A stretch of DNA of 64,000 nucleotides from Streptacidiphilus sp. P02-A3a. Its GTDB lineage: Bacteria; Actinomycetota; Actinomycetes; Streptomycetales; Streptomycetaceae. Under the pieces are notes generated by a model. It saw nothing but the letters and a program-made list of their open reading frames with translations. It searched no databases and was not told where the DNA came from. The stretch spans positions 8,813,922 through 8,877,921 of the forward strand of contig NZ_CP048289.1 of NCBI RefSeq assembly GCF_014084105.1, written 5' to 3'. Of this stretch, positions 1,772-34,460 are shown one piece after another. Each line of letters begins with the position of its first letter. Position 1 is the stretch's first letter. A program made the translations under genes and the position numbers.

Positions 1772-1781
1772 GATCCGTTGA

Positions 1782-1789
1782 CCGGACTA
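1782..1789 (+). repeat. inverted end motif of the Tn554-like element, left
   Basis: CCGGACTA, preceded by TTGA and an outer hexamer GATCCG (1772-1777). The complementary octamer TAGTCCGG lies at 6424-6431. Proposed as part of the recombinase-recognised ends. Confidence 0.5.
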
Positions 1790-1876
1790 CGAGAGGACAC
1801 GCCGGGCCGGTGCGCATCCCCCAGCTGGCCTAGTCGGTAGACGTTGCGTATCTGATCGACAAGGGAGCGCAACGAG

Positions 1877-3112
1877 TTGAGCGAGTTCCGTGACATCCGT
1901 GCCATCGAGCTGCCCCGCTGGGGACGAGTCGCGCCAGAGCCGGGGGTCTTGCCCTGGCTGGTCCTTGACGAGGAGGGAAGAGCTGTGCCGCCGGTCCGTA
2001 CGTTCCTGATCGACTTCATTGCCCGGGACAACCGGACCGGCAGTGTCCGCAGCTACGCCTACGACCTGCTGCGATGGTGGCGATGGCTGCGCGTACTCGA
2101 CGTCGAGTGGGACAAGGCCACATCTGCTGAAGTCCGGGACTTCGTCCTGTGGCTCGGTGCCGCGACCAAGCCCCGGAGGGCAGCGCGGACGCACTCAGCG
2201 GCGACGGCCAGCACCACCAACCCGATCACCAAGAAGACCTACCTGGACGACCGGTACAAGCCGCGCACCATCCGGCACAGCAACGCCGTCATCCGGGCCT
2301 TCTACGACTTCTGGATCCAGTCCGGGGGTGGCCCGCTGATCAACCCAGTGCCACTGGCCCGGAGCGATCGGCGACGGGCACACGCCCACCACAATCCGCT
2401 GGAGCCGTTCCGCGGCGAGGCGCGCCTGCGCTACAACCCCCGGATCCCGCGCCGCCGACCCAGGCAGATGCCAGACGAGCAGTGGAACGAGCTGTTCGCA
2501 GCCCTGCGCTCCAATCGCGACCGTGCCATCTTGGCGACCGCGGTCAGCAACGGTGCCCGTGCCTCCGAACTGCTGGGGGTGCGCGGAGTGGACCTGGACT
2601 GGGGCGACCAGCTCGTGCGCGTCGTGCGCAAGGGCACGCTCGCCGAGCAGTGGCTGCCCACCAGCCCCGAGGCGATGATCTGGATCCGGCTCTACCTCGC
2701 CGAGGGGCCGCCGCTGGACCTCCAGGCACCGCTGTGGTGGACCCTTCGCCGCCGCAACCATGGTGAGCGACTGGCCTACCAGCCCATGAATTACGAGGCT
2801 CTGCGGGCGGTCTTCCGCCGGGTCAACGTGCTGCTGGGCACGAACTGGTCGATGCACGACCTTCGGCACACCGCAGCGCTTCGCATGTCGCGCGACGAGC
2901 GGCTCTCGCTGCGCGATGTGCAGACGATCCTCGGCCATGCCCACATGTCCACCACGGCCGACATCTACCTGGTCGAAGAGGATGAGCACGTCATCCGGCG
3001 AGTCGCCGAGCATCTGGCCGACATCAAGGAACGGGCTGCACGGCCCGCTCCACCCGTTGCCAACGGCTACTCGGCCGAGGATCTGCACGTGCTGTTCGGG
3101 GGTGGCCACTGA
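1877..3112 (+). CDS. tyrosine recombinase 1 (TnpA-like)
   Basis: A 411-residue site-specific recombinase. An N-terminal SAM-like arm (residues about 45-180: SVRSYAYDLLRWWRWLR) is followed by the catalytic domain with all expected residues: Arg in NGARASELLG, His-x-x-Arg in HDLRHTAALR, His in LGHAHMSTT and the Tyr nucleophile in TADIYLVEE. TTG at 1877 is taken as start because AAGGGAG lies nine bases upstream and no ATG or GTG is better placed. Its TGA overlaps the ATG of recombinase 2. Length and pairing fit TnpA of Tn554-type elements (about 360 residues in Tn554). It is expected to catalyse strand exchange together with the next protein. Confidence 0.9.
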   Translation: MSEFRDIRAIELPRWGRVAPEPGVLPWLVLDEEGRAVPPVRTFLIDFIARDNRTGSVRSYAYDLLRWWRWLRVLDVEWDKATSAEVRDFVLWLGAATKPRRAARTHSAATASTTNPITKKTYLDDRYKPRTIRHSNAVIRAFYDFWIQSGGGPLINPVPLARSDRRRAHAHHNPLEPFRGEARLRYNPRIPRRRPRQMPDEQWNELFAALRSNRDRAILATAVSNGARASELLGVRGVDLDWGDQLVRVVRKGTLAEQWLPTSPEAMIWIRLYLAEGPPLDLQAPLWWTLRRRNHGERLAYQPMNYEALRAVFRRVNVLLGTNWSMHDLRHTAALRMSRDERLSLRDVQTILGHAHMSTTADIYLVEEDEHVIRRVAEHLADIKERAARPAPPVANGYSAEDLHVLFGGGH

Positions 3113-5622: not shown

Positions 5623-5792
5623 TCTTGTTCGGCGACCTCCGCCTGAACGGCGCACACCTGCCGAAGGTCGACCGCACCGAAGACGTCCGTGACCCCGCTG
5701 CCGCTGCCAGGGGCATCGACGGCTTAGAGGAACGACACCCCGACGACTCAACTGCGGCTGAGCCACCGCGGCCCGGCGCACTCGTCGACTTG

Positions 5793-6329
5793 CTAGGCCA
5801 GCGACTTCGCCAGGCGACGGTAGGTGAGCTCCTGTGCGCCCAGAACCTGACGGAGCTCGGAGACGCCGCCGGCCTCCAGCGCACGACGAGCGTCGATCTG
5901 AGATGCCCGCTCATAGGTAACGAGGCTGCCGCCCGGGTCAATCTCAGGGTCGACCATGTCCGGCCACAGGACCGCAGCGTCTCCCGCAAGGGCGAGAACC
6001 TCAGGCAGGCCGTATTGCTCGTCGGGTTGCTCCAGCGCCTGCAGGACTCGCCCTATCACCGCGAATCCAGCCTGGGTGAACGCGATGGCATGCCCCATCG
6101 AGTAGCTGCCCCGGACGACACTCAGACCCGACCGAGCCTGTTGCAAGAGACCCTGATTCAGCGTCCGGCCCGCTGCTGCCCGCAGGCCGGCTCGAAGACC
6201 CGCGTCAGCAAGGTAGTAAGGCTCAGCAAGACCTGCCCGCTCGGCGAGCACGTAGAGAGCCCCTCCAAGCCGCAGGGCGGTCGAGCACGCCAACGCCAGC
6301 GCCGACGTGCTGTCCAAGTCGTCGTGCAT
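5793..6329 (-). CDS. unknown cargo protein of the Tn554-like element
   Basis: A 178-residue protein read opposite to the recombinases, rich in Ala, Leu and Gly and probably all-helical (LALACSTALRLGGALYVL, ALEAGGVSELRQVLGAQE). No family was recognised and no signal peptide or clear membrane span is present. ATG 6329 is the first conventional start, but the frame stays open and protein-like for another 26 codons upstream (for example YGLRWQYGEASWIYCAYE) to a TGA about 25 bases inside the element end, with no ATG, GTG or TTG. Either a CTG is used or the gene lost its true 5' end at the transposon boundary. Confidence 0.6.
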   Translation of the reverse strand: MHDDLDSTSALALACSTALRLGGALYVLAERAGLAEPYYLADAGLRAGLRAAAGRTLNQGLLQQARSGLSVVRGSYSMGHAIAFTQAGFAVIGRVLQALEQPDEQYGLPEVLALAGDAAVLWPDMVDPEIDPGGSLVTYERASQIDARRALEAGGVSELRQVLGAQELTYRRLAKSLA

Positions 6330-6423
6330 GTTCGGGCCAACCTCGTAGGCGCAGTAGATCCAGGACGCCTCACCGTACTGCCACCGCAGCCCGTATCGGT
6401 CACGTCCTCAGGAGGCAACTTCT

Positions 6424-6431
6424 TAGTCCGG
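6424..6431 (-). repeat. inverted end motif of the Tn554-like element, right
   Basis: TAGTCCGG on the plus strand, the complement of CCGGACTA at 1782-1789. Four A residues (6432-6435) separate it from the IS flank GGTCCGCGGG. Confidence 0.5.
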
Positions 6432-6435
6432 AAAA

Positions 6436-7073
6436 GGTCCGCGGGACGCGGATCTTCTCCAGCACGGGCTCGAACTGCGTGCGGTCCGCCCGCTGTCCCG
6501 GGGTGAGGACCAGGGACAGCGGGCGGCAGCGGCTGTCCGCGCTCAGGTGGACCTTGGTGGTGGACCCGCCGCGCGAGCGGCCCAGGTCCTCGCCTCCAGC
6601 ACCACCTCCACCAGACGGGCGACGAGGCTCTGCCACGGCGTCTGGTCCTGGTGTTCCCCTGGCCCAGCCCCCTTTGAGGCCAGGGCCGGTGGCCGGTCGG
6701 TGCGGGCGCCGGCCGCGTGCTGGTGGGCCCGCACGATGGTCGAGTCGACCGAGACGTCCCAGTCGATGTCGCCGACCGCGTCCGCTTCGGCCTGCACCTG
6801 CTGGAGCAGCCGTTCCCAGGTCCCGTCGGCCGACCACGGCCGATGGCGTTCGTAGACCGTCTTCCACGGCGCGAAGCGCTCGGGCAGGTCACGCCAGTGC
6901 ACTGCGGTCCGCACCCGGTGCACAATCCCGTCGATCACCGGCCGATGGTCCCGCCACCGGCCACAACGCCTGTCGCTGACCGGCAGGAACGGCCGCAGCC
7001 GTTCCCACTCGGCATCCGTCAGATCTCCCCGCCCCATGCCCGAACCAACGAGCAAGTCAGGCGATAGCCACAT
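6436..7073 (-). pseudogene. IS5-family transposase, 5' fragment with frameshift overlap
   Basis: From ATG 7073 the minus strand encodes MWLSPDLL, then the DUF4096-type N-terminal domain (LTDAEWERLRPFLP, WRDLPERFAPWKTVYERH) and the first catalytic Asp in VSVDSTIVRAHQHAAG, ending out of frame at 6543. A second frame takes over near 6560 (GRSRGGSTTKVHLSADSR, GQRADRTQFEPVLEKIRVPR), as in IS427-group elements that fuse two frames by programmed frameshifting. It is cut at RVPRT by the Tn554-like element; the rest of the protein is at 1442-1771. Confidence 0.85.
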
Positions 7074-7090
7074 GATCGGGCGGACAGGCC
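7071..7090 (-). repeat. terminal inverted repeat of the IS, right end
   Basis: Read on the minus strand: GGCCTGTCCGCCCGATCATG, matching the left end at 15 of 20 positions. Flanked by CTAG at 7091-7094. Confidence 0.8.
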
Positions 7091-7094
7091 CTAG
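7091..7094. repeat. CTAG target duplication, right side of the IS
   Basis: Partner of CTAG at 1423-1426. It supplies the stop codon of the neighbouring phosphatase gene. Confidence 0.75.
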
Positions 7095-7717
7095 CCGCGC
7101 AGGGTGGCGGTGAGCGGGCGGGTGGTGGCCAGGTGGCTGGTGTCGTTGTAGGTGAGGAGGGTGGGCGGCAGGCCCGGGGTGTAGCGGATGACGGTGAGCG
7201 CGGTGTTGGCGTGGTTGAGGGTCAGCCAGCGCCAGTTCGGCGCGTCCAGGGCCTGCCGGACCAGCCAGGCGGCCAGGTAGTTGTGGGTGACCAGCAGTTC
7301 GTGGCGCTCCTGGCCGCCCGCGACCGGTCCGGTGAACCGGGCCACGGCCTCGCGGGCGAGCGCGGCGCCCTGCTCCACCTCCTCGGCGCTGACAGCAGTG
7401 AAGCGGTCGAGCACGCCCAGCAGGAACTCCGCGTACTCCAGGGGCAGTTCGTCGGCCTGCGGCAGGTAGGGCAGGTAGTCCCCGGCGGCCGGGTCGGCCG
7501 TGCGGGGGACGCCGTCCAGCTGCTCGGCGATCAGCTGCGCGGTCTGCGCGGCGCGGGTCAGCGGGCCGTGGTTCAGCGCCGAGAGCGGGCAACCGCGCAG
7601 TCGCCGCCCGAGCAGCTCCGCCTGGCGGCGGCCGTTCGCGCTCAGTCCGCCGCCGTCGCCGGGCAGGGCCTCGGCGTGCCGGACGAGATACAGGTAGCGG
7701 GTGGCGGTTCCGCCCAT
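7091..7717 (-). CDS. histidine phosphatase (phosphoglycerate mutase-like)
   Basis: A 208-residue protein of the histidine phosphatase superfamily. The catalytic RHG-type motif is LVRHAEALPG near residue 11, with the supporting arginine in LTRAAQTAQ (about residue 55) and the second histidine in LLVTHNYLAAWLV (about residue 145). Substrate is unknown; these cytosolic enzymes remove phosphate from small molecules or phosphoproteins. The stop codon TAG is formed by the CTAG next to the IS end, so the last few residues may differ from the ancestral protein. Upstream are four tandem copies of CTGATCG (7731-7759). Confidence 0.85.
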   Translation of the reverse strand: MGGTATRYLYLVRHAEALPGDGGGLSANGRRQAELLGRRLRGCPLSALNHGPLTRAAQTAQLIAEQLDGVPRTADPAAGDYLPYLPQADELPLEYAEFLLGVLDRFTAVSAEEVEQGAALAREAVARFTGPVAGGQERHELLVTHNYLAAWLVRQALDAPNWRWLTLNHANTALTVIRYTPGLPPTLLTYNDTSHLATTRPLTATLRG

Positions 7718-7860
7718 GCTCGGCCTCCTGCTGATCGGCTGATCGCTGATCGCTGATCGATACGCGCTGCTGCGTCAGACGGACGCCACCGGCCCGCGCC
7801 CCGGTTCCCGCGCGGCTGCCGACGGCGCGGGACCGGACGCGCGGGGGCAGGGCGCGAAGG

Positions 7861-8580
7861 TCAGGGCTTGTACGCCAGCAGGTACGCCTGCGGACCGGCC
7901 TCCCGCTGGTCCGGCTCGCGCAGCAGGCGGGCTTCGACCACCAGGCCCGCCTCGGACAGCAGCTGTTCGACCCGCTCCGGGGGCGTCCAGTAGACGTCCA
8001 GCGCGAGCTCGTGCCCGTAGCCGCTGGTCAGTCGGCGCAGTTCGTCCCCGGCCTTGAAGGCGGTCAGCAGCCGGCCGCCCGGGGCGAGCACCCGGTGGAA
8101 CTCGGCGAACACCACCGGCAGCAGCTCCGGCGGGGTGTGCACGGTCGAGTACCAGGCCAGGACGCCGCCGAGGGAGCCGTCAGCGAGGTCCAGGGCGGTC
8201 ATCGACCCCTCGTCGAACCGCAGCTCGGGATAGCCGGCGCGGGCGACCGCGACCATCTCCGGCGACAGGTCGACGCCGAAGGCGGTCAGCCCGAGCGCGT
8301 GCAGATGCGCCGTCACCCGCCCCGGCCCGCAGCCGAGATCGGCCACCGGACCGGCGTCCGCCGCGCGCACCTGTTCGGCGAACGCGGCGAGCATCGCCCG
8401 GTCCAGCGGCTTGGCGTCCAACTCGCCGCGCAGCAGCCTGGCGTAGTCGGCGGCGACGGTGTCGTAGGCCGTTCGGGTGGCCCGCAGATGGTCGGCGGGC
8501 GGGTGGGTGGCGGGCGGGTGGGTGGCGGGCGGGTGGGCGTTGTGCGGTTGGTCGGCGGGCGGGTGGGTGGCTTCGGTCAT
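7861..8580 (-). CDS. class I SAM-dependent methyltransferase
   Basis: A 239-residue methyltransferase. The SAM-binding motif I is VADLGCGPGRVTAHL; later parts are FGVDLSPEMVAVAR (motif II acidic residue) and LAPGGRLLTAF (post-motif). The N-terminus is a low-complexity run of PPATH/PPADH units encoded by a near-exact GGCGGGTGGGTG repeat on the plus strand, absent from most relatives and probably disordered. Acceptor substrate unknown. ATG 8580 is the first in frame upstream of the repeat. Confidence 0.88.
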   Translation of the reverse strand: MTEATHPPADQPHNAHPPATHPPATHPPADHLRATRTAYDTVAADYARLLRGELDAKPLDRAMLAAFAEQVRAADAGPVADLGCGPGRVTAHLHALGLTAFGVDLSPEMVAVARAGYPELRFDEGSMTALDLADGSLGGVLAWYSTVHTPPELLPVVFAEFHRVLAPGGRLLTAFKAGDELRRLTSGYGHELALDVYWTPPERVEQLLSEAGLVVEARLLREPDQREAGPQAYLLAYKP

Positions 8581-23111: not shown

Positions 23112-23522
23112 GTGACCTCCTCGACGCGGCGACCCCCTCACGGGAATCGTGGAGATCTGTTCGATCCGCAGTGCCCGACCCGTCGTCTGCTTGACCGGAT
23201 CGGCACGAAGTGGACGTCCATGGCCATCAAAGTGCTGGCGGAAGCGTCCCCGCAGGAGGTGCGCTTCGCGGAACTGCAACGCAGGATGACCGGCGTCTCG
23301 CAGAAGATGCTGTCGGTCACCCTTCAGGGGCTGGCCCGTGACGGCCTGGTCAGCCGTCGGGTGGAAGCGTCGGTGCCACCACGCGTGTACTACGGGCTCA
23401 CCCCGCTCGGCCTGACCCTGGAAGAACCACTGGCCAGGCTTCGCACGTGGGCCGAGGAACACATGGCCGAGGTCGACCGGGCGAACCAGCTGTGCCTGGA
23501 CTCGGTAGATGGCCAAAGGTGA
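23112..23522 (+). CDS. HxlR-family transcriptional regulator
   Basis: A 136-residue winged-helix protein. CPTRRLLDRIGTKWTSMAIK is the diagnostic N-terminal motif with the redox-type Cys; RFAELQRRMTGVSQKMLSVT is the recognition helix; the wing is SRRVEASVPPRVYYGLTPLG. GTG 23112 is the start. The last codons (DGQR, stop) lie in a repeat that recurs 1.08 kb downstream, so the native C-terminus may have been replaced when that DNA inserted. Probably regulates the divergent hydrolase. Confidence 0.88.
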   Translation: MTSSTRRPPHGNRGDLFDPQCPTRRLLDRIGTKWTSMAIKVLAEASPQEVRFAELQRRMTGVSQKMLSVTLQGLARDGLVSRRVEASVPPRVYYGLTPLGLTLEEPLARLRTWAEEHMAEVDRANQLCLDSVDGQR

Positions 23523-23540
23523 CAGCACGGTTGGCCAACC
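23510..23540 (+). repeat. 31-bp repeat, copy 1, with internal TTGGCCAA units
   Basis: It begins TGGCCAAAGGTGACAGCACG and ends GTTGGCCAACC. A close copy in the same orientation is at 24588-24619 (begins TTGGCCAAAGATGACAGGGT, ends AGTTGGCCAAGG). Internal repetition and the TGTCAC-type inward edge recall the multiple terminal repeats of IS21-family elements, but no istA or istB is present. Copy 1 contains the HxlR stop codon. Confidence 0.65.
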
Positions 23541-23572
23541 ACTGGGCTGGTCCGCCGTGGCACGGGTAGGTG

Positions 23573-24166
23573 TCAAAGTCCCTGTGGGTGCTTGGACAGC
23601 CAGTCGCTGCGGCGTTCGCGCATGGCGTCCCGCCTGGCGCTGTTCGCGAGGATCACGTCTGCGCCGCCGTCATAGGGGTGGTAGAGCTGATCAAGGTTTG
23701 TGTCGGTGATGATCACACCTGCTGATACGTCGTCTGCGACCGAGCGAAGCAGCAGGTCAAGGCATGCGGGCTGCCATCGGATGCGGCTGATGTAGGAGTG
23801 CCGGTGAAGCCGGTATTCCGGATCGGGCTCGTTGGTGGGAGAGGATGTCCACAGCTCGCTGCCGGGGTGGAGTCGAAGCTGGTCGTCTGACCGTACTGCG
23901 GGATCGCCCGGATAGGACCACCCGTTGGTGATCACGCAGACGTCCTGCCCCGTGAACAGTTCGTCCAGCACCGTGTTGTGCCGCTCCAGGATGACCCTGT
24001 AATCGGCCTCGTCCTGTGCGTAGCGCTTGGAGTCCGGCAGGCTGTGGAACCGGACCCAGCGTTCAGCGTGCTTTGCGCGGAGCTCGTGCGCGTCGGGTGG
24101 CTTCGCCTGCCACCTCTCCTCCCAGCGCGCCAGTAGGTCGCTGAACAACTCGCCGTCCTCGCTCAT
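23573..24166 (-). CDS. DUF3885-like protein
   Basis: A 197-residue soluble protein: LFSDLLARWEERWQAKPP near the start, RYAQDEADYRVILERHNTVL, DVCVITNGWSYPG, ADVILANSARRDAMRERR and the final WLSKHPQGL. The Asp/Tyr-rich body and the W-L-S-K-H-P-x-G-L ending match DUF3885 proteins as I remember them. Function unknown; such proteins often sit in immunity-like or accessory loci. Its ATG overlaps the TGA of the upstream gene (ATGA), so the two are coupled. Confidence 0.75.
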   Translation of the reverse strand: MSEDGELFSDLLARWEERWQAKPPDAHELRAKHAERWVRFHSLPDSKRYAQDEADYRVILERHNTVLDELFTGQDVCVITNGWSYPGDPAVRSDDQLRLHPGSELWTSSPTNEPDPEYRLHRHSYISRIRWQPACLDLLLRSVADDVSAGVIITDTNLDQLYHPYDGGADVILANSARRDAMRERRSDWLSKHPQGL

Positions 24167-24513
24167 TCGTCGGTCTTCGCGTCGTTGGCCGTGCAGGCCA
24201 TGCGGTTGTGCATGGGTGCCCGATCGAGGACTTCGATGAACATGATGCGGCCGTCCAGTACGTCCAGGTTAAGCATGCCCTCCGCAGGTATGAGCGGCAC
24301 GCACCGATGTCCTGGGCCGTAGGGCTGTCCTTGCGGGTGATCCGCTGTTCGGATGCTCTGGCAGAAGTCATCAGTGCATGCGCATTTGCCGACCAGGCGG
24401 ACATCGCGCACGCTGATGGCCAGCCAACGCTCTCCTTCCGCCTCCAGGAGAGCGGTCAGCTCGGTGACGAGGTCGGGGAAGACGTCGCGAACGAGGGGTT
24501 GGTCCTGCTCCAT
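24163..24513 (-). CDS. small conserved protein with Cys cluster, partner of DUF3885
   Basis: A 116-residue protein. VTELTALLEAEGERWLAISV at the start, then GKCACTDDFCQSI (three Cys, zinc-like spacing), PYGPGHRCVPLIPAEG, LNLDVLDGRIMFIEVLDR. Small hypothetical proteins of this layout are common in Streptomyces; function unknown. It is the first gene of a two-gene unit with the DUF3885-like gene, and the unit lies between the two 31-bp repeats. Confidence 0.75.
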   Translation of the reverse strand: MEQDQPLVRDVFPDLVTELTALLEAEGERWLAISVRDVRLVGKCACTDDFCQSIRTADHPQGQPYGPGHRCVPLIPAEGMLNLDVLDGRIMFIEVLDRAPMHNRMACTANDAKTDE

Positions 24514-24587
24514 AGCGGGAGGGTGACACGGCCTGACCTCGTCTGACAATCGGTTTGGGGAGCCTTCAGGTCCCGGCGCACTTGTGG

Positions 24588-24619
24588 TTGGCCAAAGATG
24601 ACAGGGTAGTTGGCCAAGG
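24588..24619 (+). repeat. 31-bp repeat, copy 2
   Basis: Direct copy of 23510-23540, about 75 bases upstream of the two-gene unit's start. Between here and 24856 I see no gene on either strand; the stretch 24514-24855 holds only this repeat and probably the promoter for the leftward gene pair. Confidence 0.65.
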
Positions 24620-24855
24620 CGGACGAGGACGGTGATTCCGGACATAGTTCCCTCTATGTGCTGAACTGGGGCACGGGGCATCGTCCCAGCCGTTGCCGGA
24701 GGGCTGTCATGGAGTCATGAGCCTTCGCGGTCAGGTCGGCAGTGGTCTGGAGTCTGGACTTTACCGACCGGGGGTAGTGCCGCCCGTGATGTCCGTCTGG
24801 GCCTGTGACCAGGGCGTCGCGGGCTCGTTTGCCGACCGTGTCCGGAGCGCCCGTC

Positions 24856-25590
24856 ATGTTCCGGAGTCGGTACGGAGGGCAAGTGGCACGGCGAGTGGTG
24901 GTCGGGGACCTGAGGGTCCAGCAGATCGAGCGGAAGGACGGGCGGCGGTCGTGGACGATCGTGTGGCCCGAGGGCAGTATCCACAGTGAGGCGGACCGCT
25001 TCCTGCGCCTGCACGACGGGTCGGGCACGCAGAAGACCTACGCGTACTACCTGGTGGACCACCTGCGGTGGCTGGAGCGCGAGTGCCTGGCCTTCGACAA
25101 GGTCGTGCTGCGGGACCTTGAGCGCCACATGGGCATCGTCGGCGCCGAGGTCCGCATGCCGCTCGGTGAGCCGTGGCGGATCGGCAAGCGCCCTTACGGC
25201 CGCTCCGCACTCTCGACGGCGGCGGCCTGCCTGAAGGGCTTCTACCTGCACCAGTCCTCGCTCGGCGTGAACGGCGAGCTCGGCAAGCAACTCGACACCT
25301 CCCGGCTGCCCACGCGGGCGGACCGCCGCCGTGCGTTCCTGGGGCAGGTGAAGTCGACGCTGCCCACCAACCCGCTCGCGCCGACGGGGCCGCACCGCCG
25401 GCACCCGAAGATGCTCCCCGACGGCGCGCGGGACAAGCTACTGGGGTGGTGAACTCGGCCCGGAACCGGCTGCTGGTGACCTGGTTGGCCGACGGCGGGC
25501 TGCGGATCGGCGAGCTCTGCGGGCTGCACCTGGTGGACCTGCACCTGCGCGAGAACGCGGCCTGCGGCGAGGGGCGGGACCGGCTGGAGA
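24856..25590 (+). pseudogene. TnpA-like tyrosine recombinase, N-terminal part, frameshifted
   Basis: ATG 24856 opens a frame with an N-terminal arm domain (GSGTQKTYAYYLVDHLRWLE, GRSALSTAAACLKGFYLHQS) that ends at 25452 (MLPDGARDKLLGW). The catalytic domain start follows one frame over: VVNSARNRLLVTWLADGGLR and IGELCGLHLVDLHLRENAACGE, including the first catalytic Arg in DGGLRIGEL. It then fuses in frame to sequence belonging to a TnpB-like protein, so the HxxR, His and Tyr of this enzyme are missing. A broken first gene of a second Tn554-like trio. Confidence 0.8.
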
Positions 25591-27157
25591 TCCTCACCGC
25601 GCTGATCGGCGCCCCGGCCTTCGACCCGATCTTCCGCGACGTCATCATCCGTGTCCCGCAGGGCCACCGTGTCTACCAGTGGGCCTGTGTGGTCGACGCG
25701 TGCGAGCGGGCCCGGCACAGCGGATTGGATCTGTGCTCGACTCACTTCCAGGAGTGGGGAACGGCCCGGGAGTCCGGGACGACTCGGGCGGAGTTCCTCA
25801 CCACCGCCGGGCCGCTGCCGCGCCGAGTACGACCGGGCAGGGTCCTGCCTGATTTGCCCCGCCCGGCCCACCTCGCCGCGCACCGGGCTGCGGTTGTGCA
25901 TCCGTCACTACGGCGCGTGGAAGTATTCGGTCTCCGTCGGGGACGCGTCGGTGGACTTCGACCAGTGGGTGGCAGATCAGGAGCCGTGCGAGGGCTATGG
26001 GAACTGCCAGGCCACTGTCTGTCCCGGGCTGGCGTTGTCCCCGCTGGGGCTGTGCTGCTGGCATCGGCACCGCTACATGCGCGACCGCCGTCCGGGAGGG
26101 GCGGCCCTCCCGTCGAGCTGGTGGCAGCGCTACGAGAAGCAGGGGCAGCCGGTTCGCGTCTGCTACGCGGACCAGAACGCGTTCCGTGCCTGGTGCGCGG
26201 CTGTTGACCCGGCGCTGCGGCCGGAGCAGGTCAACCTGCGCCGGCCTGCGGCCCCTGCTGCGGGCCGAGATCCTGCTCGCCGAGCGCCAGCGCAAGACGC
26301 TGGACCGCTTCGTCGCCCGGCACGGCCGTCGACCGACGGGCAGCGAGCGGGCCCGGCTGGCGCTGTTCGCGACCAAGGTCCGCAACCCCGCCGGCACCAC
26401 CGCGCTGTCCTACACCTGGTTCAACCGCGGCTTCCGGGACTGGGTGAACGAACTCGACCTGGGACACATCGTCCCCCATCAGGCTCGCCACACGCTGGCC
26501 ATGAATCTGCTGCGGGCCGGTGCTTCACTGACCCACATCCGACGTTACCTCGGGCAGGTTTCGGACCGCATGGCCGAGCATTATGTGCATCTGACCAGTA
26601 CTGATCTGGAGGACGTGCTCCAGCATATCTGGGTCGCCGGCCCCGACACCGCCCAACCGGACGAACTCCTTGCCGGGGATGCCACCCCGCTCACCCGCGC
26701 GCAGGCCCAGGCCCTGGCGATCGACCTGTCGCGCCGCAGCACCCCGGCCGAGGGCGAGTTCTGCAACTTCCAGCCCGTCGTCGAGGGCGGCACATGCCCC
26801 TGGAACCTGGACTGCCACAACTGCGACAAGTTCGTACTCTCCGGCGCCGATCTCCTCTACTGGCGGCGCAAGCGCGAACAGTGGCGGCTCTTGGCTGAGG
26901 GTGCACCCGATGACGCCACCGCCGACTACCTCCACCGCTACTTCGAACCCACCGCCCGCGCCATCGACGGCCTGGAGAGCGCCCTGGCCGGCCTCGGCCT
27001 GCTCGACGACGCCCTTGCCCTGGACCTGCGCAAGCCCCAGGACTACTTCCACCGGGTGTGGTCCACCGCCTTCCGCGCGGCCGACCTCGCCCAGGCCACC
27101 GGCGACGAGCAGGGCCGGGCCGACGACACCATCGACGAGCAGGAGCAACGCGCGTGA
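25580..27157 (+). pseudogene. TnpB-like tyrosine recombinase, frameshifted and internally deleted
   Basis: Three frames are needed. First GRDRLEILTALIGAPAFDP to RAEFLTTAGPL (to about 25810), with a Cys-rich N-terminus (WACVVDACERARHSGLDLC). Second CLICPARPTSPRTGLRLCI to YADQNAFRAWCAAVDPALRP (to about 26240). Third LRAEILLAERQRKTLDRFVA to the stop at 27157. The third part retains HQARHTLAMNLL (HxxR), IRRYLGQVSDRMAEHYVHLT (with Tyr) and a Cys cluster ending CPWNLDCHNCDKFVLS. The first catalytic Arg region is missing. Not functional, but it keeps the overlap with the downstream TnpC-like gene. Confidence 0.8.
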
Positions 27158-27741
27158 CCACGACCGTCCCCGACCCGCGCACGGCCGCCGCCCTGGCCGC
27201 TCGCCACCGCAGCACCGACGCCGCCCTCGGACGTGTCCGCGACGCCATCGCCCGGCTCCGCCGCGAGAAGACCCAGGTCAGCGTCGCCGCGGTCACCCGC
27301 CGCGCGAACGTCTCCCGCACCTTCCTCTACGACCACCCCGACGCCAGAGCCGCGGTCGCCACCGCGATGGCCGAAGCCGACGAACGCCGGACCCAGGTGC
27401 TCACCGACCAGGACGAGGCACGCGAGGCGACCTGGCGCGAGCGGGCCCTGAACGCCGAGGACGCCCTCAAGGCCGCCCACACCGAGATCCTCACCCAGCA
27501 CACCAGCATCGGCGAACTCCTCGGACAGGACCGAGACTTGGAAGCCGAGTGGACCCAGGAGGCCATCCAGCGGATCACCACCGAGAACACCGCCCTCAAG
27601 CAGCGCGTCCGCCAGCTCGCCGCCGACAACCGGTCCTTCGACGAGCGGCTGAAGGCCGCCCGCTCCAACCTGCGGTTTCAGGACCGCCGCGTCGCCGACC
27701 TCGAAGCCCAGATCGCTGAACCAGGGCGACCTACGTCCTGA
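27154..27741 (+). CDS. TnpC-like accessory protein (DUF6262-type)
   Basis: A 195-residue protein with GTG at 27154 overlapping the TGA of the TnpB-like relic (GTGA). N-terminal HTH-like part: VSVAAVTRRANVSRTFLYDH, followed by a long Glu/Ala/Arg-rich coiled coil (residues about 75-190: LNAEDALKAAHTEILTQHT, ENTALKQRVRQLAADNRSFD). This is the third member of the TnpA-TnpB-TnpC set of Tn554-like transposons, where it assists DNA recognition. It looks intact although both recombinases are broken. Confidence 0.8.
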   Translation: MTTTVPDPRTAAALAARHRSTDAALGRVRDAIARLRREKTQVSVAAVTRRANVSRTFLYDHPDARAAVATAMAEADERRTQVLTDQDEAREATWRERALNAEDALKAAHTEILTQHTSIGELLGQDRDLEAEWTQEAIQRITTENTALKQRVRQLAADNRSFDERLKAARSNLRFQDRRVADLEAQIAEPGRPTS

Positions 27742-28141
27742 TCTCGCGGGGACCGCTCACCCGTACTTCGCCGCCGGGCCGGACGTGGAGAAACTCATGG
27801 AATCGGACTGACACACTCCATGCGGAACGCTCGTCGTCGGGCGGAACCGTCAGGCACCAGCCACTGGCGAACAGGATCCGAAGGACGCCCTGATCGGAAG
27901 CGCTGACCTCGGCAATGACCTGGCCCAACAGTTCGGTCGCCTTGCCGAGGTTGGTCTGGGGCCATGCGGCCAGTCTGTATGTCTGTCCGTCCGCCGCGAG
28001 TTCTGACCATGAGTGCAGCTCGATCTGGTGCGATCCGAAGCGGAGCCTCATCTCGCGGGAGATGGCCAGCTCGCTGACGCCCAGTCCGCGAAACGTAGGT
28101 ACGCGCCAACCATCATCGACGCGCATGATCTCCCGGCTCAT
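27731..28141 (-). CDS. DUF6188-like small protein
   Basis: A 136-residue beta-rich protein: RVPTFRGLGVSELAISREMR, LRFGSHQIELHSWSELA, GVLRILFASGWCLTVPPDDE, AWSVSVRFHEFLHVRPGGE. The layout (a FGSH-type strand, then 'G-x-L-x-I-x-F-x-x-G-x-x-L-x-V-x-P-D', then a W) matches DUF6188 as I recall it, a group often found in immunity-like loci. Its ATG overlaps the stop of the ankyrin gene. The 3' end overlaps the TnpC-like gene by 11 bases in opposite orientation. Confidence 0.6.
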   Translation of the reverse strand: MSREIMRVDDGWRVPTFRGLGVSELAISREMRLRFGSHQIELHSWSELAADGQTYRLAAWPQTNLGKATELLGQVIAEVSASDQGVLRILFASGWCLTVPPDDERSAWSVSVRFHEFLHVRPGGEVRVSGPREIRT

Positions 28142-28551
28142 GCTTTGCCACCGGGCAGGTGGACCGCAACGTCATAGTTGGCGATCTTGTCGGCCAGACC
28201 ACGCGGGCTCACACCGTGCGCGTTCTCCTGGTCGGGATCGGCTCCGGCCGCCAGCAGCACGCGAAGCGTCGCGCCCTCGCCCCGGAAGGTGAACACCGCC
28301 CGCCAGAGCGCGGTATTGCCATGGCGATCAGCCACGTCCACCGACGCGCCGACCGATAGGAGGACCTCGGCGGCCAGCGCGTCCTGGGCCTGTGCGGCGA
28401 AGTGCATCGGCGTCCACCCTGCCTTGTCCACGGCATTCGGATCCGCCCCGCGCTCAAGCATCGCCCTCAACCCAGCGACATCGCCATCCACGACGGCATT
28501 GTGCGCCGCCGTGCGGCCGAACAGGTCCCGCCCCTGATCCTCTCGCATCAT
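28138..28551 (-). CDS. ankyrin-repeat protein
   Basis: A 137-residue protein of about four ankyrin repeats: RTAAHNAVVDGDVAGLRAML, GWTPMHFAAQAQDALAAEVL, GNTALWRAVFTFRGEGATLR, then a degenerate capping repeat (ANYDVAVHLPGG). ATG 28551 (MMREDQGRDLF) follows GGAGAGGA eight bases upstream, which decides the start over ATG 28599. Such small ankyrin proteins act as protein-binding modules and often as immunity proteins. Its TGA overlaps the ATG of the DUF6188-like gene, so they are one unit. The 313 bases upstream (28552-28864) hold no gene I can support. Confidence 0.8.
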   Translation of the reverse strand: MMREDQGRDLFGRTAAHNAVVDGDVAGLRAMLERGADPNAVDKAGWTPMHFAAQAQDALAAEVLLSVGASVDVADRHGNTALWRAVFTFRGEGATLRVLLAAGADPDQENAHGVSPRGLADKIANYDVAVHLPGGKA

Positions 28552-28864
28552 GGCACCCGTCCTCTCCGGGTCTGACGGGAGAAACTGCGGCACCCCCATA
28601 GCCAGAGCCACCCTAGGCGACGCGGTCGAGACCTCCGCTTCCAAGGCCGCCGCGTCGCGGACCTCGAAGCCCGGATCCCGGGCACTCGACAACTTAAGCA
28701 TTGCCGCTGTCGGCGTATACGTGAACGGCCCCAGCCATGTACGGAGGAGTCCTGTTGCCCGGCACGGCGGATGTCCGTCTCGGACCCGGGTCGGGCTCTG
28801 GGAATGTATCACCGGCGCCTGGTCGTGGCACTGAAGTGATGCTGTGGAAGCCGTGCGTGGCCGC

Positions 28865-29362
28865 TCAGGGCTCAACCCACCGCTTCTCGTAGGCGAGCCT
28901 GTTCGGCCCGTCGCCGTCCACCTCGTTGCCGTAGAGGTCCACGGTGGCATCCATGTAGCCCATGGCGTAGAGGATCGCTTCGGCTACCGCCTGGGCATCG
29001 ACGTCGTCTATCTCATGGACGGTGTAGCGGATCGAGTTCTGGACGCGGCCGGAGAGGTTGGCGGCGACGGCGAGGGCAGAGAAGCTCGACTTGGTCAGAC
29101 CGGAGGCTTCCAGCGCGATGCTTCCGCCGCGCAGGATCTCGACTACAGCCGCGAATGCCTCAGCGAAGTAGGTGGCGGCGTACGGGCCGGTCTCGCTCAT
29201 GTGCATACGGAGGTAGTTGTTCTTGATCAGCCATTCCCGCAGGTTGTCCACCTTCAAGACCAGCCGCTCGGCCGCCTCCACCTGCCGGATCGTGGAGGCA
29301 CCTTGCATGAGCAGTATCTCGAGTTCATTCAGATCCTCGGGGACGGGTCTGGCATGGTCCAT
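28865..29362 (-). CDS. hypothetical protein
   Basis: A 165-residue, mostly helical soluble protein (PEDLNELEILLMQGASTI, VEAAERLVLKVDNLREWLIK, YAATYFAEAFAAVVEILRGG, DAQAVAEAILYAMGYMDATV). No motif is recognised. It follows the 75-residue gene by 24 bases on the same strand and probably shares its transcript. Codon use is less GC-extreme than the core genes to the right, in keeping with accessory DNA. Confidence 0.7.
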   Translation of the reverse strand: MDHARPVPEDLNELEILLMQGASTIRQVEAAERLVLKVDNLREWLIKNNYLRMHMSETGPYAATYFAEAFAAVVEILRGGSIALEASGLTKSSFSALAVAANLSGRVQNSIRYTVHEIDDVDAQAVAEAILYAMGYMDATVDLYGNEVDGDGPNRLAYEKRWVEP

Positions 29363-29386
29363 CAGCAGCAGCCTCTCTGTCAGGTG

Positions 29387-29614
29387 TCAGCCTCGGGGCT
29401 GAGGACGCGTGGCACCCTGATCATTCTGCGGATCGATACCGTTGTAGACGGCCCCGGGATCGTCGGGTGCCGACCACGAACCGACAGTCCAGATCTCGGA
29501 GGCCGGCGGGCCGGGAACGCACCGGCCGACATCATCTCCGTAAGGCCCGCCCCCGAAAACGGCATGCATCCAGCCTTGCGGCGGTGTCCCACTCAGATCG
29601 AACACATCGTCCAT
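29387..29614 (-). CDS. hypothetical small protein
   Basis: A 75-residue protein starting MDDVFDLSGTPPQGWMHAVF and containing GGGPYGDDVGRCVPGPPASE. The 'GGGPYGDDVGRCxPGPP' segment looks like conserved sequence and supports coding. First gene of a probable two-gene unit with 28865-29362. No function known. Confidence 0.55.
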   Translation of the reverse strand: MDDVFDLSGTPPQGWMHAVFGGGPYGDDVGRCVPGPPASEIWTVGSWSAPDDPGAVYNGIDPQNDQGATRPQPRG

Positions 29615-29784
29615 CGCCCGCTGCCTCCCGGTCGCGAAGCATCGTAGTGCAGACCGTGAAGGCGTCCCGCTGCGATGGCCCCACCTCGGGACGTTCAAAC
29701 GTACGTACCTGAGGAGCTAAGGCCGTACGACGACAGCCGCTCGATCAGGTCCGTTGAACAGGGGAAACCCTTGGTCAACGGACC

Positions 29785-30234
29785 GTGCGGTATGTCAGGC
29801 TCCGGGATATGGAGCCCCACAACGAGCAGGCGGCGGGCGAGATCTTGCACCAGCGCGGCTGGCGCAAGGCGTTCACCGTCCAGGAGATGGTCGACAAATG
29901 GGCCCGAATCGTGGGCAAGGTCGAGAACGGCTACGACGACATGGCCGAGGAGTACACCAACGACCTCTACAGCCGAAACTGGCTCCACGAGGCGTGGCCG
30001 ATCCTCACTGAACGCGTCATCGTCATCTGGACTCCGCGGATCAAAGCCCTGGACGACCGATTCCGGGCCGCCACCGTCTTCGACGACGGCATCGCCATGT
30101 CGCAGTTCCACCGGATCAGCGGATTCGACCCCATCGACATGTGGTGGTGGCGACGCCATCCCCGCCTACTCGTCGGTGACCTCGGTCGTGATCTCCGCTT
30201 GGCCGGAGCGGTAGACGCGTCGTCAAACCCTTGA
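29785..30234 (+). CDS. hypothetical protein
   Basis: A 149-residue soluble protein rich in aromatic residues: GEILHQRGWRKAFTVQEMVD, YDDMAEEYTNDLYSRNWLHE, DPIDMWWWRRHPRLLVG. No family was recognised, though the composition and the WWWRRHP box suggest a conserved fold. GTG 29785 is the first plausible start; ATG 29809 is an alternative. Stands alone between accessory remnants. Confidence 0.65.
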   Translation: MRYVRLRDMEPHNEQAAGEILHQRGWRKAFTVQEMVDKWARIVGKVENGYDDMAEEYTNDLYSRNWLHEAWPILTERVIVIWTPRIKALDDRFRAATVFDDGIAMSQFHRISGFDPIDMWWWRRHPRLLVGDLGRDLRLAGAVDASSNP

Positions 30235-30303
30235 CCAGCTCCTGAAAGCGGCACCCGCGGAGTCGGATCAGCCCTTGTCGCAGGCGAGACCTATCGTGGT
30301 CGG

Positions 30304-30595
30304 GTGACGAAGTGGCTCCGCTGTTACTGGGATGAAGAAGGCATTTGGTTCCACTTCGAACTCGACGCTGACGGACAAGTGACCCGACAGGTCGAGCTCC
30401 AGGAGCCCGACCAGAATCCTCTGGCTGCGGGCATCACTCGATGAGTGGCTGCGCGCGCAGGAGACCGGCCGTCTCGCGGAGTACGAAGCCAAGTACGAGC
30501 TGACCGCAGAGCTGCCCTTCCAGGAATGGTGCGGACCCGGGTCGGACTGGATACTGGACCGGCACGGGCTCCAGGAGCATCTCAGGCGACGAAGT
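30304..30595 (+). pseudogene. conserved hypothetical gene, frameshifted
   Basis: GTG 30304 opens MTKWLRCYWDEEGIWFHFEL and runs to a TGA at 30442-30444 (NPLAAGITR). One frame over the same protein continues: ASLDEWLRAQETGRLAEYEA and LPFQEWCGPGSDW. The joined sequence matches a small family I remember from Streptomyces. A single-base change near 30435 breaks it; its 3' end is replaced by the TniB relic. Confidence 0.6.
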
Positions 30596-30704
30596 CGAGA
30601 ACCACCCCATCGGTCGACACCAGAAGTGGGCGAGGCACCGTCACGGACATGTAGCCTATGAATCGTCGCAGTTCAGAGCCGGTGTCCGAGCTCCTGCGGT
30701 CGGT

Positions 30705-31361
30705 GAAATCGACGACATCACACGGCTCAAGATGCATCGCGAAGACGACCAGGACACCCTCGACCTCATCCGCGATCTCATGAGCCTGAACGTCACCCTC
30801 GTCCTCATCGGCGTCAACATCCCCGGCTCCGGTCTCCTGCGCGAAGGCCGCCACGACCCTCGCAGCGGTCAATTGGTCTTCCCTCCTGTCAAACGGGGCA
30901 GGAGCTACAACGATGAGGCGGCGACCCAGACCGAGCGCCGCTTCGACATGGTCAACCTGGACCCGTTCCACTACGACACCCCGGCAGGCATCACCGCCTG
31001 GATCGCCCATCTCAACGGCATCGAGAAGCAGTTGAGGCTGTTCCGCTCCACCCCCCGCCTGCTCACCCGAAACACGATGCCCGAGTACCTGTTCCGCCGC
31101 ACCGGAGGCATTGTCGGGCTACTGAAGCGGCTCATCGAGGACGGCTGCACGAAGGCCGTCGAGAGCGGCAAGGAGAACCTGACGATCGGCCTACTCGATG
31201 AGCTCACCATCAACCTGGGCAACGTGCCGGATCGGGACGCGGCCGCTGGAGAGGTCCCAGCGCTCAAGAGCGAGGCGGACAGCGCCCAAGGCCAGCAGCG
31301 CAAGCGAGGGAGGAACACCGTCTTCGATGACCGGGGCGGCCGACCGGCCGCCGACGCCTGA
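30705..31361 (+). pseudogene. TniB-like AAA ATPase, 5'-truncated
   Basis: From EIDDITRLKMHREDDQDTLD (Walker B region) through LNVTLVLIGVNIPGSGLL (sensor 1), AATQTERRFDMVNLDPFHYD, MPEYLFRRTGGIVGLLKRLI (winged-helix-like part) to the stop at 31361. Walker A and the N-terminal third are absent; the sequence before 30705 is not recognisably TniB. This is the ATP-binding target-selection partner of TniA-type DDE transposases (Tn5053/Tn7-related). Its TGA overlaps the ATG of the TniQ relic (TGATG). Confidence 0.75.
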
Positions 31362-32556
31362 TGCCGTCCGCGATCCTTCGCCCGCTGCCCCGCGGCCTTG
31401 ACCCTCTCCCGCCCTGGAGCCAGATCGGGCTGAGAGCTTTGCTCGCACCACCCAGCTCTCTCGAAGCGAGGTCGGCAATCTGCTCACCTCAGCAATGGGC
31501 ACACGCTACGGACCGCTGAACACAGAGCTCACCCCACGCGGCAGCGCTGCCACGATGGCCTACGGCAACCCCTGGCTTCTTACCCGCACCCCCCGCTACT
31601 GCCCGCAGTGCCTGGCGGGAGACGGAAGCGAGATCCAAGAGCTGCACGGCGGAGCCTGGCGGCGGAACTGGATGCTGCCGCCCGTCTTTGCCTGTCCCCG
31701 CCACCGGCGCCTGCTGCGGGTTAACTGTCCGTCCTGTCTCCAGCCCGTCAACGGCGCCCAGAAGGGCAGCATCATCGCCAGGCTCTGGGATGACGATCTC
31801 CACCCCACCCAGTGCCGAACAACCAGAACCCCTCTGACAATTGGCCGTCTCCAACCGGCCTGCGGCACGGAGCTCTCCGAGTCGGCCGAGCTCATCGCGG
31901 GCAGCCCCTGCGATGAACACACATTGAAGTACCTGCTCGGCCTCCAAGAGCGGCTCCTGCACCTGCTCGATCCCACCGGCCCCGACATGACGCCGAGCGT
32001 CGGCTGGCTGGTCCCCGTCGCCCACTACTTCGCCGACCTACGAGCCCTGCTCGGCCTGGTGTTCCTCACCTGGCCGGCAGCCCGCCACCTCGCCGGGACT
32101 CCCGCGCTTACGACAGTCCTCGACGAAGAAGCCCAACAACGCCGTGCCCGCGCCGAAGACCTCCACACTCGCCCGGGGAAGAAGTACAGTTCGCGGCCCT
32201 ACACCGACCCGCCCGTGAACCCACTGCTCATGGGAGCTGTCCTAGGCATCGCCATGAGCCTTCTCGATGCCGACGACGAAGTCCTGGCCATCGAACTCCT
32301 GACGCCGCTGGTCAGACAGGCATACGCCGAAAATCAGGCCCTGGCGAACTACCTCCGCCGTGAATCATGGATCTCATACCCCTTGAGGATCGTCATCATG
32401 AACCGCTCGCGGGGAACGGCTCCACCGGACAAGCTGATCGGATGGGGCCCGAGTCCGGCTGTGAGCTACAGCGCGCCCTGTCCAAACGTCTACCTCCGCC
32501 GCTCTCCGAGACCCAGCAGCGACGCGGCCAGCACGGCAGGATGGTCCCCGACATGA
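31361..32556 (+). pseudogene. TniQ-like zinc-finger protein, frameshifted
   Basis: ATG 31361 starts ILRPLPRGLDPLPP, the usual TniQ opening, then a frameshift near 31420 moves to the frame of 31495-32556 (GNLLTSAMGTRYGPLN). Zinc-binding CPQCLAGDG, VFACPRHRRLLRVNCPSC and a long helical C-terminus follow (LLGLQERLLHLLDPTGPD, GLVFLTWPAARHLAGTPA). TniQ acts with TniA and TniB in transposition. No TniA is present, so this is an orphan remnant. Confidence 0.72.
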
Positions 32557-32595
32557 TCGAGACGAGTCAGGACTCCAGCTCCGGAAAGGTGGGAA

Positions 32596-33179
32596 GTGTC
32601 GCGCAGTGACGCCGACCTCGCAGCGGAGATCGCACCAGCCGGTCTTCGCTTCATAGAACGCGACCGAGCGGAAGGCAGACTTCCCGCCGAGGCTGGGAAC
32701 ATCGCGACATCATGTCGGCGTGAGGATGGACGCATCGATGCCGAACCTCACGAGGTCCTCGATGTCGACGACCCCGAACGCGCCCTCAAGCTCGATGCCG
32801 TATGGCTCCGCCTCGCCAACGAACACGGACTTCTCAACCCCGAGCGCGAGTTCCTCCTCCAAGTCGACTACGCCGACGAAGGCGACGACTGGCCGCAGCT
32901 CGCATGGATCAGGGTCCAACTCCAGGACGACTGGAGCATCGCAGGGGGCATCGTCCCCGCGCTCGGAGGCTTCGGCGTTCCCGAGTTCACCGCGATGGCC
33001 ATCCATGGAGACGCACTCATGCGCACGACCGTCTGGGGCAACGGCCAGATCAGCTCCCTGCCATCCCGCAGCCGTCAACAGCGCAGCCGATCCGCAAGTG
33101 GGCCGAGTACATGGCCCACGACCCCAGCTACCCAGTAGATGTCCAGGCCGCTGCCCAAGCCTGGCTGGCGAAGCACTGA
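32596..33179 (+). pseudogene. hypothetical protein gene with a late frameshift
   Basis: The first frame (GTG 32596) reads protein-like sequence: RALKLDAVWLRLANEHGLLN, EREFLLQVDYADEGDDWPQL, VPALGGFGVPEFTAMAIHG, MRTTVWGNGQISSLP. Near 33062 coding shifts to another frame: IPQPSTAQPIRKWAEYMAHD, PVDVQAAAQAWLAKH, ending at 33179. The joined protein (about 190 residues) is not recognised. The N-terminal 40 residues are less protein-like, so the true start may be later. Confidence 0.5.
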
Positions 33180-33208
33180 CAAGACGCGGCACTCCCGCAA
33201 GCCAGCCT

Positions 33209-33940
33209 TCAGAGTGCCCCCTGGGCTGGTTGCGGATAGCCGATCTCGGCGATGTCCTGAGCCAGGTCCGCCAGGCAGACCTCGGGGTTCAGCGACGACA
33301 CGAGTTCGTTGCTCAGCGGCCGCAGGGCATACACCTGACTCACCGCCGCCAGGTCCACCGAGACCTCGTAGTAGTCCTCGGCGAAACGCTGGAATGCTTT
33401 CGGAGTCTGTTCGACCAGGAGCTCGAACAGACTCGTGGACCCGTCAGGGTCGACAGCGCCCTTGGGGAAGTCGATCGTCCCGTGGTTCCACCGATCGTCC
33501 GTCGCTCCCCGCCACAGACAAGCTGTCACGACGGGCATCCCGTTCTCATCGGTGAACGCCGGCTCCTCAACGAAGGACTTGAAGAGGTCGGGGACCTCGT
33601 CGATCACCCCCGGCCATGGCTCGCCGTCGTTGCCATACGGGCTCATCGGCGATTCGTGGCCGAAGCCGCGCACATAGACTCCGGGCGCCGAGAACACGAT
33701 GGAGTACTCGTCTCCTGACCCATTGCGCATCGAAGCCATCTCCTCGCCGTCGGCCCAGCTGGCGTTGAAGGAGTAGTACCGGCCTTCCCAGTCCGGGCTC
33801 AGGATCGCATCGAGCATCGCCAGCGAACGGCACAGGTCCCGCAGGTCATCGACGGCGGGGAGCCGGCGGGCCACGTCATAGACAGTCACGTGCTCATCCA
33901 ACCCGATGCCAGTGACACCCCGCGCCCGCCCGAACCTCAT
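33209..33940 (-). CDS. conserved hypothetical protein, possible immunity-like
   Basis: A 243-residue acidic soluble protein. Typical stretches: EHVTVYDVARRLPAVDDLRD, LAMLDAILSPDWEGRYYSFN, EEMASMRNGSGDEYSIVFSA, SPMSPYGNDGEPWPGVIDEV, QRFAEDYYEVSVDLAAV. It appears intact and well conserved in character, with many Asp/Glu/Tyr, as seen for immunity-type proteins, but no toxin gene is next to it. Start could be ATG 33940 or 33958; neither has a clear Shine-Dalgarno. Confidence 0.7.
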   Translation of the reverse strand: MRFGRARGVTGIGLDEHVTVYDVARRLPAVDDLRDLCRSLAMLDAILSPDWEGRYYSFNASWADGEEMASMRNGSGDEYSIVFSAPGVYVRGFGHESPMSPYGNDGEPWPGVIDEVPDLFKSFVEEPAFTDENGMPVVTACLWRGATDDRWNHGTIDFPKGAVDPDGSTSLFELLVEQTPKAFQRFAEDYYEVSVDLAAVSQVYALRPLSNELVSSLNPEVCLADLAQDIAEIGYPQPAQGAL

Positions 33941-34020
33941 GAGCCCTGGTTCCAACATGCGTGGCCAGGTTCCATCTATCGTGTCCCGGCTCAACGTCTG
34001 GGACCGGGCGGGCGACACAG

Positions 34021-34041
34021 TTGCAAGCGATGTGCTTGCAA
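34021..34041. promoter_or_regulatory. inverted repeat upstream of the Xre gene
   Basis: TTGCAAGC - five bases - GCTTGCAA, a perfect 8+8 palindrome, ending 29 bases before the start of the Xre regulator. Probably its own operator. Confidence 0.6.
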
Positions 34042-34070
34042 TAGTTAGCACGGCGGGGCAGAGTGGGGGC

Positions 34071-34460
34071 ATGGCCTCACTGAACGTCGGCTCGCTCGGC
34101 GAGTACATCCGTGAGCAGCGACGGCATGCGCAGTACTCGCTGCGGCAGCTCGCGGATGCCGCCGGCGTGTCCAACCCGTACCTCAGCCAGATCGAGCGCG
34201 GGCTGCGCAAGCCGAGCGCGGAGATCCTGCAGCAGATCGCGAAGGCGCTGCGGATCTCCGCGGAGACGCTGTACGTGCAGGCGGGGATCCTCGATGAGCG
34301 CGAGGAGGCGGGCCTGGAGTTCCGGGCGGCCGTCTTCGCGGACTCGTTGATCAACGAGCGGCAGAAGCAGGTGCTGCTCGCCGTCTACGACTCCTTCCTC
34401 AAGGAGAACGAGAGGGAGCACGGGACCAGTGACCGTACAGACCAGGTAGATCCCGTCTAG
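34071..34460 (+). CDS. Xre-family HTH regulator
   Basis: A 129-residue regulator with an N-terminal Cro/C1 HTH: LGEYIREQRRHAQYSLRQLA, DAAGVSNPYLSQIERGLRKP, SAEILQQIAKALRISAETLY, then a C-terminal helical tail (NERQKQVLLAVYDSFLKENE). It marks the left edge of the conserved core region; in Streptomyces an Xre gene of this type commonly precedes an HBHA-like gene, as here (13 bases to the next start). An inverted repeat sits in its promoter region. Confidence 0.88.
   Translation: MASLNVGSLGEYIREQRRHAQYSLRQLADAAGVSNPYLSQIERGLRKPSAEILQQIAKALRISAETLYVQAGILDEREEAGLEFRAAVFADSLINERQKQVLLAVYDSFLKENEREHGTSDRTDQVDPV

Follow-up and report, generated by a model that had tools for sequence, protein, structure and literature searches.

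Next to an hxlR gene, the DNA of Streptacidiphilus sp. P02-A3a analysed here (hereafter the window, the whole stretch of 64,000 nucleotides) carries a DUF3885 gene pair bracketed by two similar direct repeats, raising the question of what these repeats are and how the gene pair came to lie between them. The first-pass annotation had read positions 23510-24619 as a mobile or recombined cassette, possibly using IS21-type terminal repeats without the transposase. Here, we propose that the repeats are left-end sites of a Tn7-like transposon, that a decayed element of this kind sits in the tail of hxlR, and that a second left end lies behind its cargo, a reading in which we place high confidence (Table 1).

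Table 1. Coordinates of the features under discussion (window positions unless a locus in a relative is named)
Feature	Position	Strand	Description
hxlR gene	23112..23522	+	ORF; HxlR PF01638, 1.7e-20
Candidate target duplication CCAGC	23486..23490	.	directly outside the tip; 5-bp duplications in 7/16 relatives' loci
Outer left end (left repeat)	23491..23538	+	TGTGCC tip and two boxes at 22-bp spacing; fits the tip pattern with 1 mismatch
DUF3885 cargo gene	23573..24166	-	PF13021, 1.3e-44
116-aa partner gene	24163..24513	-	ORF; 4-bp overlap with the DUF3885 gene
Inner end (right repeat)	24588..24617	+	two TTGGCCAA boxes 22 bp apart, tipless, 129 bp ahead of the tnsA start codon
tnsA remnant, first 14 codons	24717..24759	+	DNA homology to G152 up to 24748; TnsA frame continues in G152
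Tn554-like element	24760..30707	+	between tnsA and tnsC; inverted ends TTTACCGACCG / CGGTCGGTGAA
tnsC remnant, starting at codons IDDITRL	30708..31361	+	58.5% identity to L063 TnsC
tniQ remnant without the first ~106 residues	31414..32412	+	44.6% identity to L063 TniQ 107-432; PF06527, 5.5e-11
Abutting tips in relatives	L056:10677-10683; L063:451-456; L132:13192-13198; L062:9984-9999		
Relatives' loci with tips and 5-bp duplication	L129, L130, L132, L135, L136, L137, L144		

The repeat pair and its junction with hxlR

The two direct repeats (23505-23538 and 24584-24617) are each 34 bp long, 79% identical and similarly oriented around the gene pair, with 1079 bp from start to start. Within the window, the 29-letter pattern TGGCCAAAGRTGACAGNNNNGTTGGCCAA matches 23510-23538 and 24589-24617 only, and no match to it arose in 100 shuffles; the genome-wide repeat search suggested with the first-pass annotation found no third copy in the 9.33-Mb genome at up to three mismatches, thus confirming the pair. 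The internal units described in that annotation are present in both copies at a spacing of 22 bp, but one of them is imperfect, since the right copy consists of two perfect TTGGCCAA boxes and the left copy of ATGGCCAA followed by TTGGCCAA. The left copy does overlap the hxlR stop, as had been noted.

The position of the junction follows from two relatives. G031 shares 92% DNA identity with the hxlR region, ending at window position 23490, and its HxlR terminates in RSQERTADD where that of the window reads LCLDSVDGQR; it carries no element at hxlR, and we therefore treat this site as unoccupied. Another copy of the element stands at a different place in G152, with 98% identity over 23491-23540 and 93% over 23541-24748. 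As the match to G031 is lost after 23490 and that to G152 sets in at 23491, the junction between hxlR and the element falls between these two positions. The first letters of the element are TGTGCCTGGACTCGGTAG, followed by the boxes, so that transposon DNA from 23491 supplies the last hxlR codons and the stop, in agreement with the earlier proposal that the left copy provides the end of the HxlR gene.

These observations suggest a first step in which a Tn7-like element would have entered hxlR at its 3' end, with the TGTGCC tip joined after CCAGC, such that the tip and the first box would now encode the last HxlR residues and the stop. The repeats would thereby represent paired TnsB-binding-type sites of a Tn7-like left end; both the binding of TnsB to the boxes and the candidate 5-bp duplication are inferred here from the relatives described below. 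A right-hand copy of CCAGC was not found, and a single-box scan of both strands between 22 and 36 kb, allowing up to two mismatches, returned nothing convincing as a right end, which counts against the proposal. As long as the window shows no recognisable right end, the span of the element and the CCAGC duplication are unproven.

The combination of tip and boxes recurs in G152, G198 and G180. A scan of genome contigs for the exact tip pattern, from which records near the window may have been left out, returned one record, from Kitasatospora phosalacinea; no match to the pattern was found in viral sequences, and 13 plasmid records match part of 23491-24757, none of them covering 80% of it. The hxlR gene as a recurring attachment site was considered and rejected, given that no HxlR homologue (E up to 1e-3) was detected in the 25 other loci. 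The same count bears on a different explanation, namely that the repeats form a fixed regulatory operator, bound for example by HxlR, beside hxlR and the DUF3885 operon, a possibility suggested by the palindromic TTGGCCAA boxes with their spacing of two helical turns and by the regulator gene next to them. Of 297 genomes, 46 contain a DUF3885 relative (E up to 1e-30), yet the repeat, at up to three mismatches, is found in two of these (G000 and G152) and absent from the remaining 44; it also occurs without this cargo in G180, in G198 and at a third place in G152. The first-pass annotation had named a fixed regulatory site next to the same genes as the observation that would refute its reading, and these genomes do not show such a site; an operator is, in our estimation, very improbable.

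Tn7-like gene remnants and their relatives

Past 24619, the element continues with tnsA, a nested element, tnsC and tniQ, and its remnants reach at least 32412. The interval 23510-24619 delimited at first therefore holds the repeats but is too short at both sides, the tip starting at 23491. Among the Tn7-like features, the window retains TnsC and TniQ as remnants and 14 codons of TnsA, TnsB being absent; of the clustered terminal repeats, it shows the left end. The tnsC remnant, which by itself gave no Pfam match, starts at codons that we take to be Walker-B-like. No match to TnsB was obtained in the window, and elsewhere in the genome there are four distant TnsB relatives (28-33% identical). 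Since the window lacks tnsB, the link from the boxes to a transposase rests on relatives. The initial view of mobile or recombined DNA with terminal repeats and without its transposase is supported.

Among the relatives, G180 (locus L063) contains open tnsA-tnsB-tnsC-tniQ frames between ends of this type. Its TnsA matches NF033179 at 126 bits (cut-off 110), with Pfam TnsA below its cut-off; its TnsB matches a solved TnsB over ~97 residues (E 2e-10), with Pfam rve below its cut-off; its TnsC matches AAA_22 and TniB above their cut-offs, and its TniQ was recognised at 2e-25. IS21 elements belong to the same broad DDE transposase superfamily and likewise possess multiple terminal binding sites, but to our knowledge they encode istA-istB only, without TnsA and TniQ. 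Because the relatives sharing the end plan of the window carry tnsA, tnsB, tnsC and tniQ, and are on this gene content Tn7-like, the IS21 assignment is not supported.

TnsC relatives (E up to 1e-30) were found in 33 of 297 Streptomycetaceae genomes. The locus set comprised 20 regions around TnsC or DUF3885 hits together with G180 (21 loci), and tnsA, tnsB and tnsC occur together in 17 of them; 16 were used, G216 being left out as its contig does not reach past the ends of the element. Matching tips (17-22 of 22 letters) with an exact 5-bp duplication were identified in 7 of the 16 loci with a tnsABC-tniQ core. L136 and L137 hold one element that occupies two separate sites in G095 (duplications AAGGA and GACTC), and the seven loci therefore represent six distinct elements. 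As a control, tips matching at 16 or more of 22 letters were obtained in 1 of 320 mononucleotide shuffles, and pairing the left flank of one locus with the right flank of another gave 4 of 240 at this threshold and 2 of 240 at 17 or more. In the remaining nine loci, G180 included, no acceptable pair of tip and duplication was found, which counts against our reading; weak tip pairs in L141 (14/22) and L142 (13/22) were not counted, and the paired tips of L062 and L133 had no matching 5-bp flanks.

Using a box string of 8-10 letters taken from each element's own ends in the seven loci, perfect copies were found only within ~130 bp of the tip, with one-mismatch copies also inside some elements. 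The box sequence differs between relatives, and whereas boxes at one end lie 20-23 bp apart, those at the opposite end are often separated by 54-55 bp; both points count against our reading. Clustered end repeats together with a target duplication have also served to set the ends of a Tn6022 element, according to excerpts of a published analysis (PMC10293859).

Two further loci were noted in other genomes. In G198, a 545-bp stretch (L062:9440-9984) lies between two opposed tips without matching 5-bp flanks, and no TnsABC-TniQ match was obtained in the 19-kb region around it; it is a possible non-autonomous derivative. In G164 (L143), a tnsC-tniQ relic stands beside the same HTH-gene block as is found to the right of the window element (window 30763-34410), possibly marking an old shared insertion site.

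The DUF3885 pair and its flanking ends

The two genes between the repeats form the coupled unit that had been described, both on the minus strand with a 4-bp overlap. The 116-aa partner gave no Pfam match, and it adjoins DUF3885 in 3 of 30 places in which it was sought, among 47 DUF3885 places found. These three are in the window, G152 and G005, and the DUF3885 proteins of the latter two share at least 87% identity with that of the window. DUF3885 had no sequence match in the PDB, neither protein matched NCBIfam or PADLOC models, and single-sequence structure models of the two (mean pLDDT 41.8 and 41.4) were too poor for searching. We read the pair as passenger DNA.

A stand-alone DUF3885 cassette, recombining at the 30-bp repeats through a site-specific recombinase that might belong to the Tn554-like neighbour, would make sense of the tyrosine-recombinase locus just right of the repeat and of the pair's presence elsewhere in G005. 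Against this, the ends of the Tn554-like element are its own and differ from the repeats, and the G005 pair, which has a stop in DUF3885, carries no TAGTTGG box, its homology ending inside the repeats. Moreover, the DNA common to the window and G152 spans 23491-24748, beyond both repeats, with no homology boundaries at them. Only the left copy bears a tip, the right copy occupies tnsA's own left-end place, and remnants extend to at least 32412; the idea of a self-contained cassette between the repeats is thus not supported, and we regard it as very improbable.

The place of the right copy becomes clear from its distance to tnsA. The first box lies 129 bp from the tnsA ATG both in the inner copy of the window and in G152; the corresponding distance is 130 bp at the inner end of G180 and 128 bp in G216, where the contig starts within the left end. 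The right copy therefore stands where a left end belongs, and no tip precedes it in the window or in G152. In G180, the order is tip and boxes at 456, a gene of 534 aa that is unrelated cargo, tip and boxes at 2275, and tnsA; with the same plan and another cargo, there are thus two lineages in which cargo lies between two such ends. We accordingly read the inner copy as the older left end, to the outside of which the DUF3885 pair and a second left end were added. In the second step of the proposed mechanism, then, two left ends of the same orientation would bracket the pair, the inner one being the older and having lost its tip, and the outer, tipped copy would be a second left end acquired along with the cargo. 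Most simply, we infer a second insertion beside the first, followed by a deletion that fused the cargo to the inner boxes. Three observations count against this step: the double left end is found in two lineages only (G000/G152 and G180), the two tips of G180, outer and inner, differ in sequence type, and neither 456-8019 nor 2275-8019 in G180 (right tip at 8019) has matching 5-bp flanks.

The arrangement could alternatively derive from a single left end whose array was split by DUF3885 cargo inserted between its boxes, no second end ever having existed. Such a split would accommodate the limited identity of the copies (only 79%), the ability of intact elements to carry three boxes per end, some 54-55 bp apart, and the tipless inner copy of both the window and G152. 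It accords poorly with the full two-box, 22-bp arrangement in each copy, with the confinement of perfect boxes to ~130 bp from the tip in the seven loci with defined ends, with the complete tip that the inner copy of G180 still has, and with the normal left-end distance between the inner copy and tnsA. We consider a split array unlikely and favour two left ends, the outer element or its end having, we would suggest, been added beside an existing left end.

Among 25 loci scanned with a pattern allowing three mismatches, outward-facing tips abut in four: L056 and L132 (5 bp), L063 (4 bp) and L062 (14 bp). In L132, the 5 bp between the tips are GCCAC, the duplication of the intact element, and the other flank of the neighbour is GCCGC. 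Abutting tips of this kind suggest repeated insertion at one point, and recurrent insertion at one target point would explain them without any new mechanism. Tentatively, and at less than even chances, we put forward the stacking of ends as a route of cargo capture: in actinobacterial Tn7-like transposons, a second element would insert at the point used by the first and abut it, with one 5-bp target between the tips, and loss of the inner tip would lock the genes of the outer element between two left ends of the same orientation. If so, the tnsA-proximal machinery would carry the locked genes along as newly gained cargo.

The nested Tn554-like element and comparison with known transposons

Between the tnsA and tnsC remnants lies a Tn554-like element with broken tnpA and tnpB, tnpC (DUF6262) and further genes. 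PF00589 was detected in its tnpB, and its tnpA fragment shows as much as 93% identity to relatives in which the frame stays open for longer; DUF6262 corresponds to TnpC. Compared with the copy in G157, which has both tyrosine recombinases and DUF6262, that of the window lacks ~540 bp. Its recombinase was considered as the owner of the repeats and rejected, as the tnp locus starts at 24757-24761 in five copies (three of them in one genome) and has its own inverted ends; the Tn554-like element is separate from the repeat-bearing element. An ankyrin-repeat protein encoded within it (28141-28950) matches the PADLOC candidate model PDC-M72A (4.4e-14) over its ankyrin part.

In three different tnsC genes, a Tn554-like end lies directly before I/L-D-D codons (window 30694-30720; L065:3828 in G157; L140:9329 in G001), which are presumably Walker-B-like in each, and G157 keeps both tnsC halves around the insertion. 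The Tn554-like element may thus be a transposon targeting the ATPase gene of another transposon. Three further copies in G012 (L059, L060 and L061) appear to lie in a VVIEFK/VEFK-type coding motif, and the target may therefore be a stretch of hydrophobic-strand and D/E codons.

In the third step of the proposed history, the Tn554-like element would have landed directly before the IDD codons of tnsC, and the remainder of tnsA, the complete tnsB gene and half of tnsC, on its 5' side, would have been lost. In its present state the element is immobile by itself, since tnsB is missing, a right end is not recognisable and the TnsB relatives elsewhere in the genome are all distant; should a cognate TnsABC-TniQ enter, the outer tip would offer the sole usable left end. 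On our reading, what was an odd repeat pair becomes a defined end sequence, a TGTGCC tip followed by TAGTTGGCCA-type boxes at 22-bp spacing.

Prototypic Tn7, as described in excerpts of a 2024 review (PMC11406308), has TnsB sites of 22 bp that overlap in its right end but lie apart in its left end, and generates a 5-bp duplication. The logic of transposase-site arrays at both ends is the same here, and several relatives are likewise asymmetric, combining an end of 20-23 bp spacing with one of 54-55 bp. Differences from Tn7 as these excerpts present it are the box sequence, the single core TniQ of G180 and the target, which is the 3' end of hxlR and not attTn7. Similarly, the nested element resembles the actinobacterial Tn554-related transposons in the available passages of PMC3414803 in having a shorter and an abnormally long (869 aa, G157) tyrosine recombinase and a TnpC-like gene; relative to those passages, its short inverted ends TTTACCGACCGCAGG and its insertion before the tnsC IDD codons stand apart.

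The closest comparison is with an Actinobacteria-dominated clade of Tn7-like elements, none of which had been experimentally characterised as of 2021 according to excerpts of Benler et al. 2021 (PMC8649781). As far as these excerpts describe the clade, it shares with our elements the genes tnsA-tnsB-tnsC-tniQ (in the relatives), clustered short end repeats, 5-bp duplications and cargo, whereas the window copy is decayed, without tnsB or a detected right end, and has a duplicated left end around its cargo. In all likelihood, the window carries a decayed member of this clade, and the end sequence defined here would accordingly belong to a group most likely within that uncharacterised clade (PMC8649781). 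With its ends, its fusion to hxlR and its double left end, the element extends a known kind and does not represent a new one. According to excerpts of the 2024 review, Tn7-like elements probably capture cargo by further mechanisms that have yet to be discovered (PMC11406308); cargo between two left ends, in the window and in the Kitasatospora element of G180, together with abutting ends in 4 of 25 loci, suggests one testable route.
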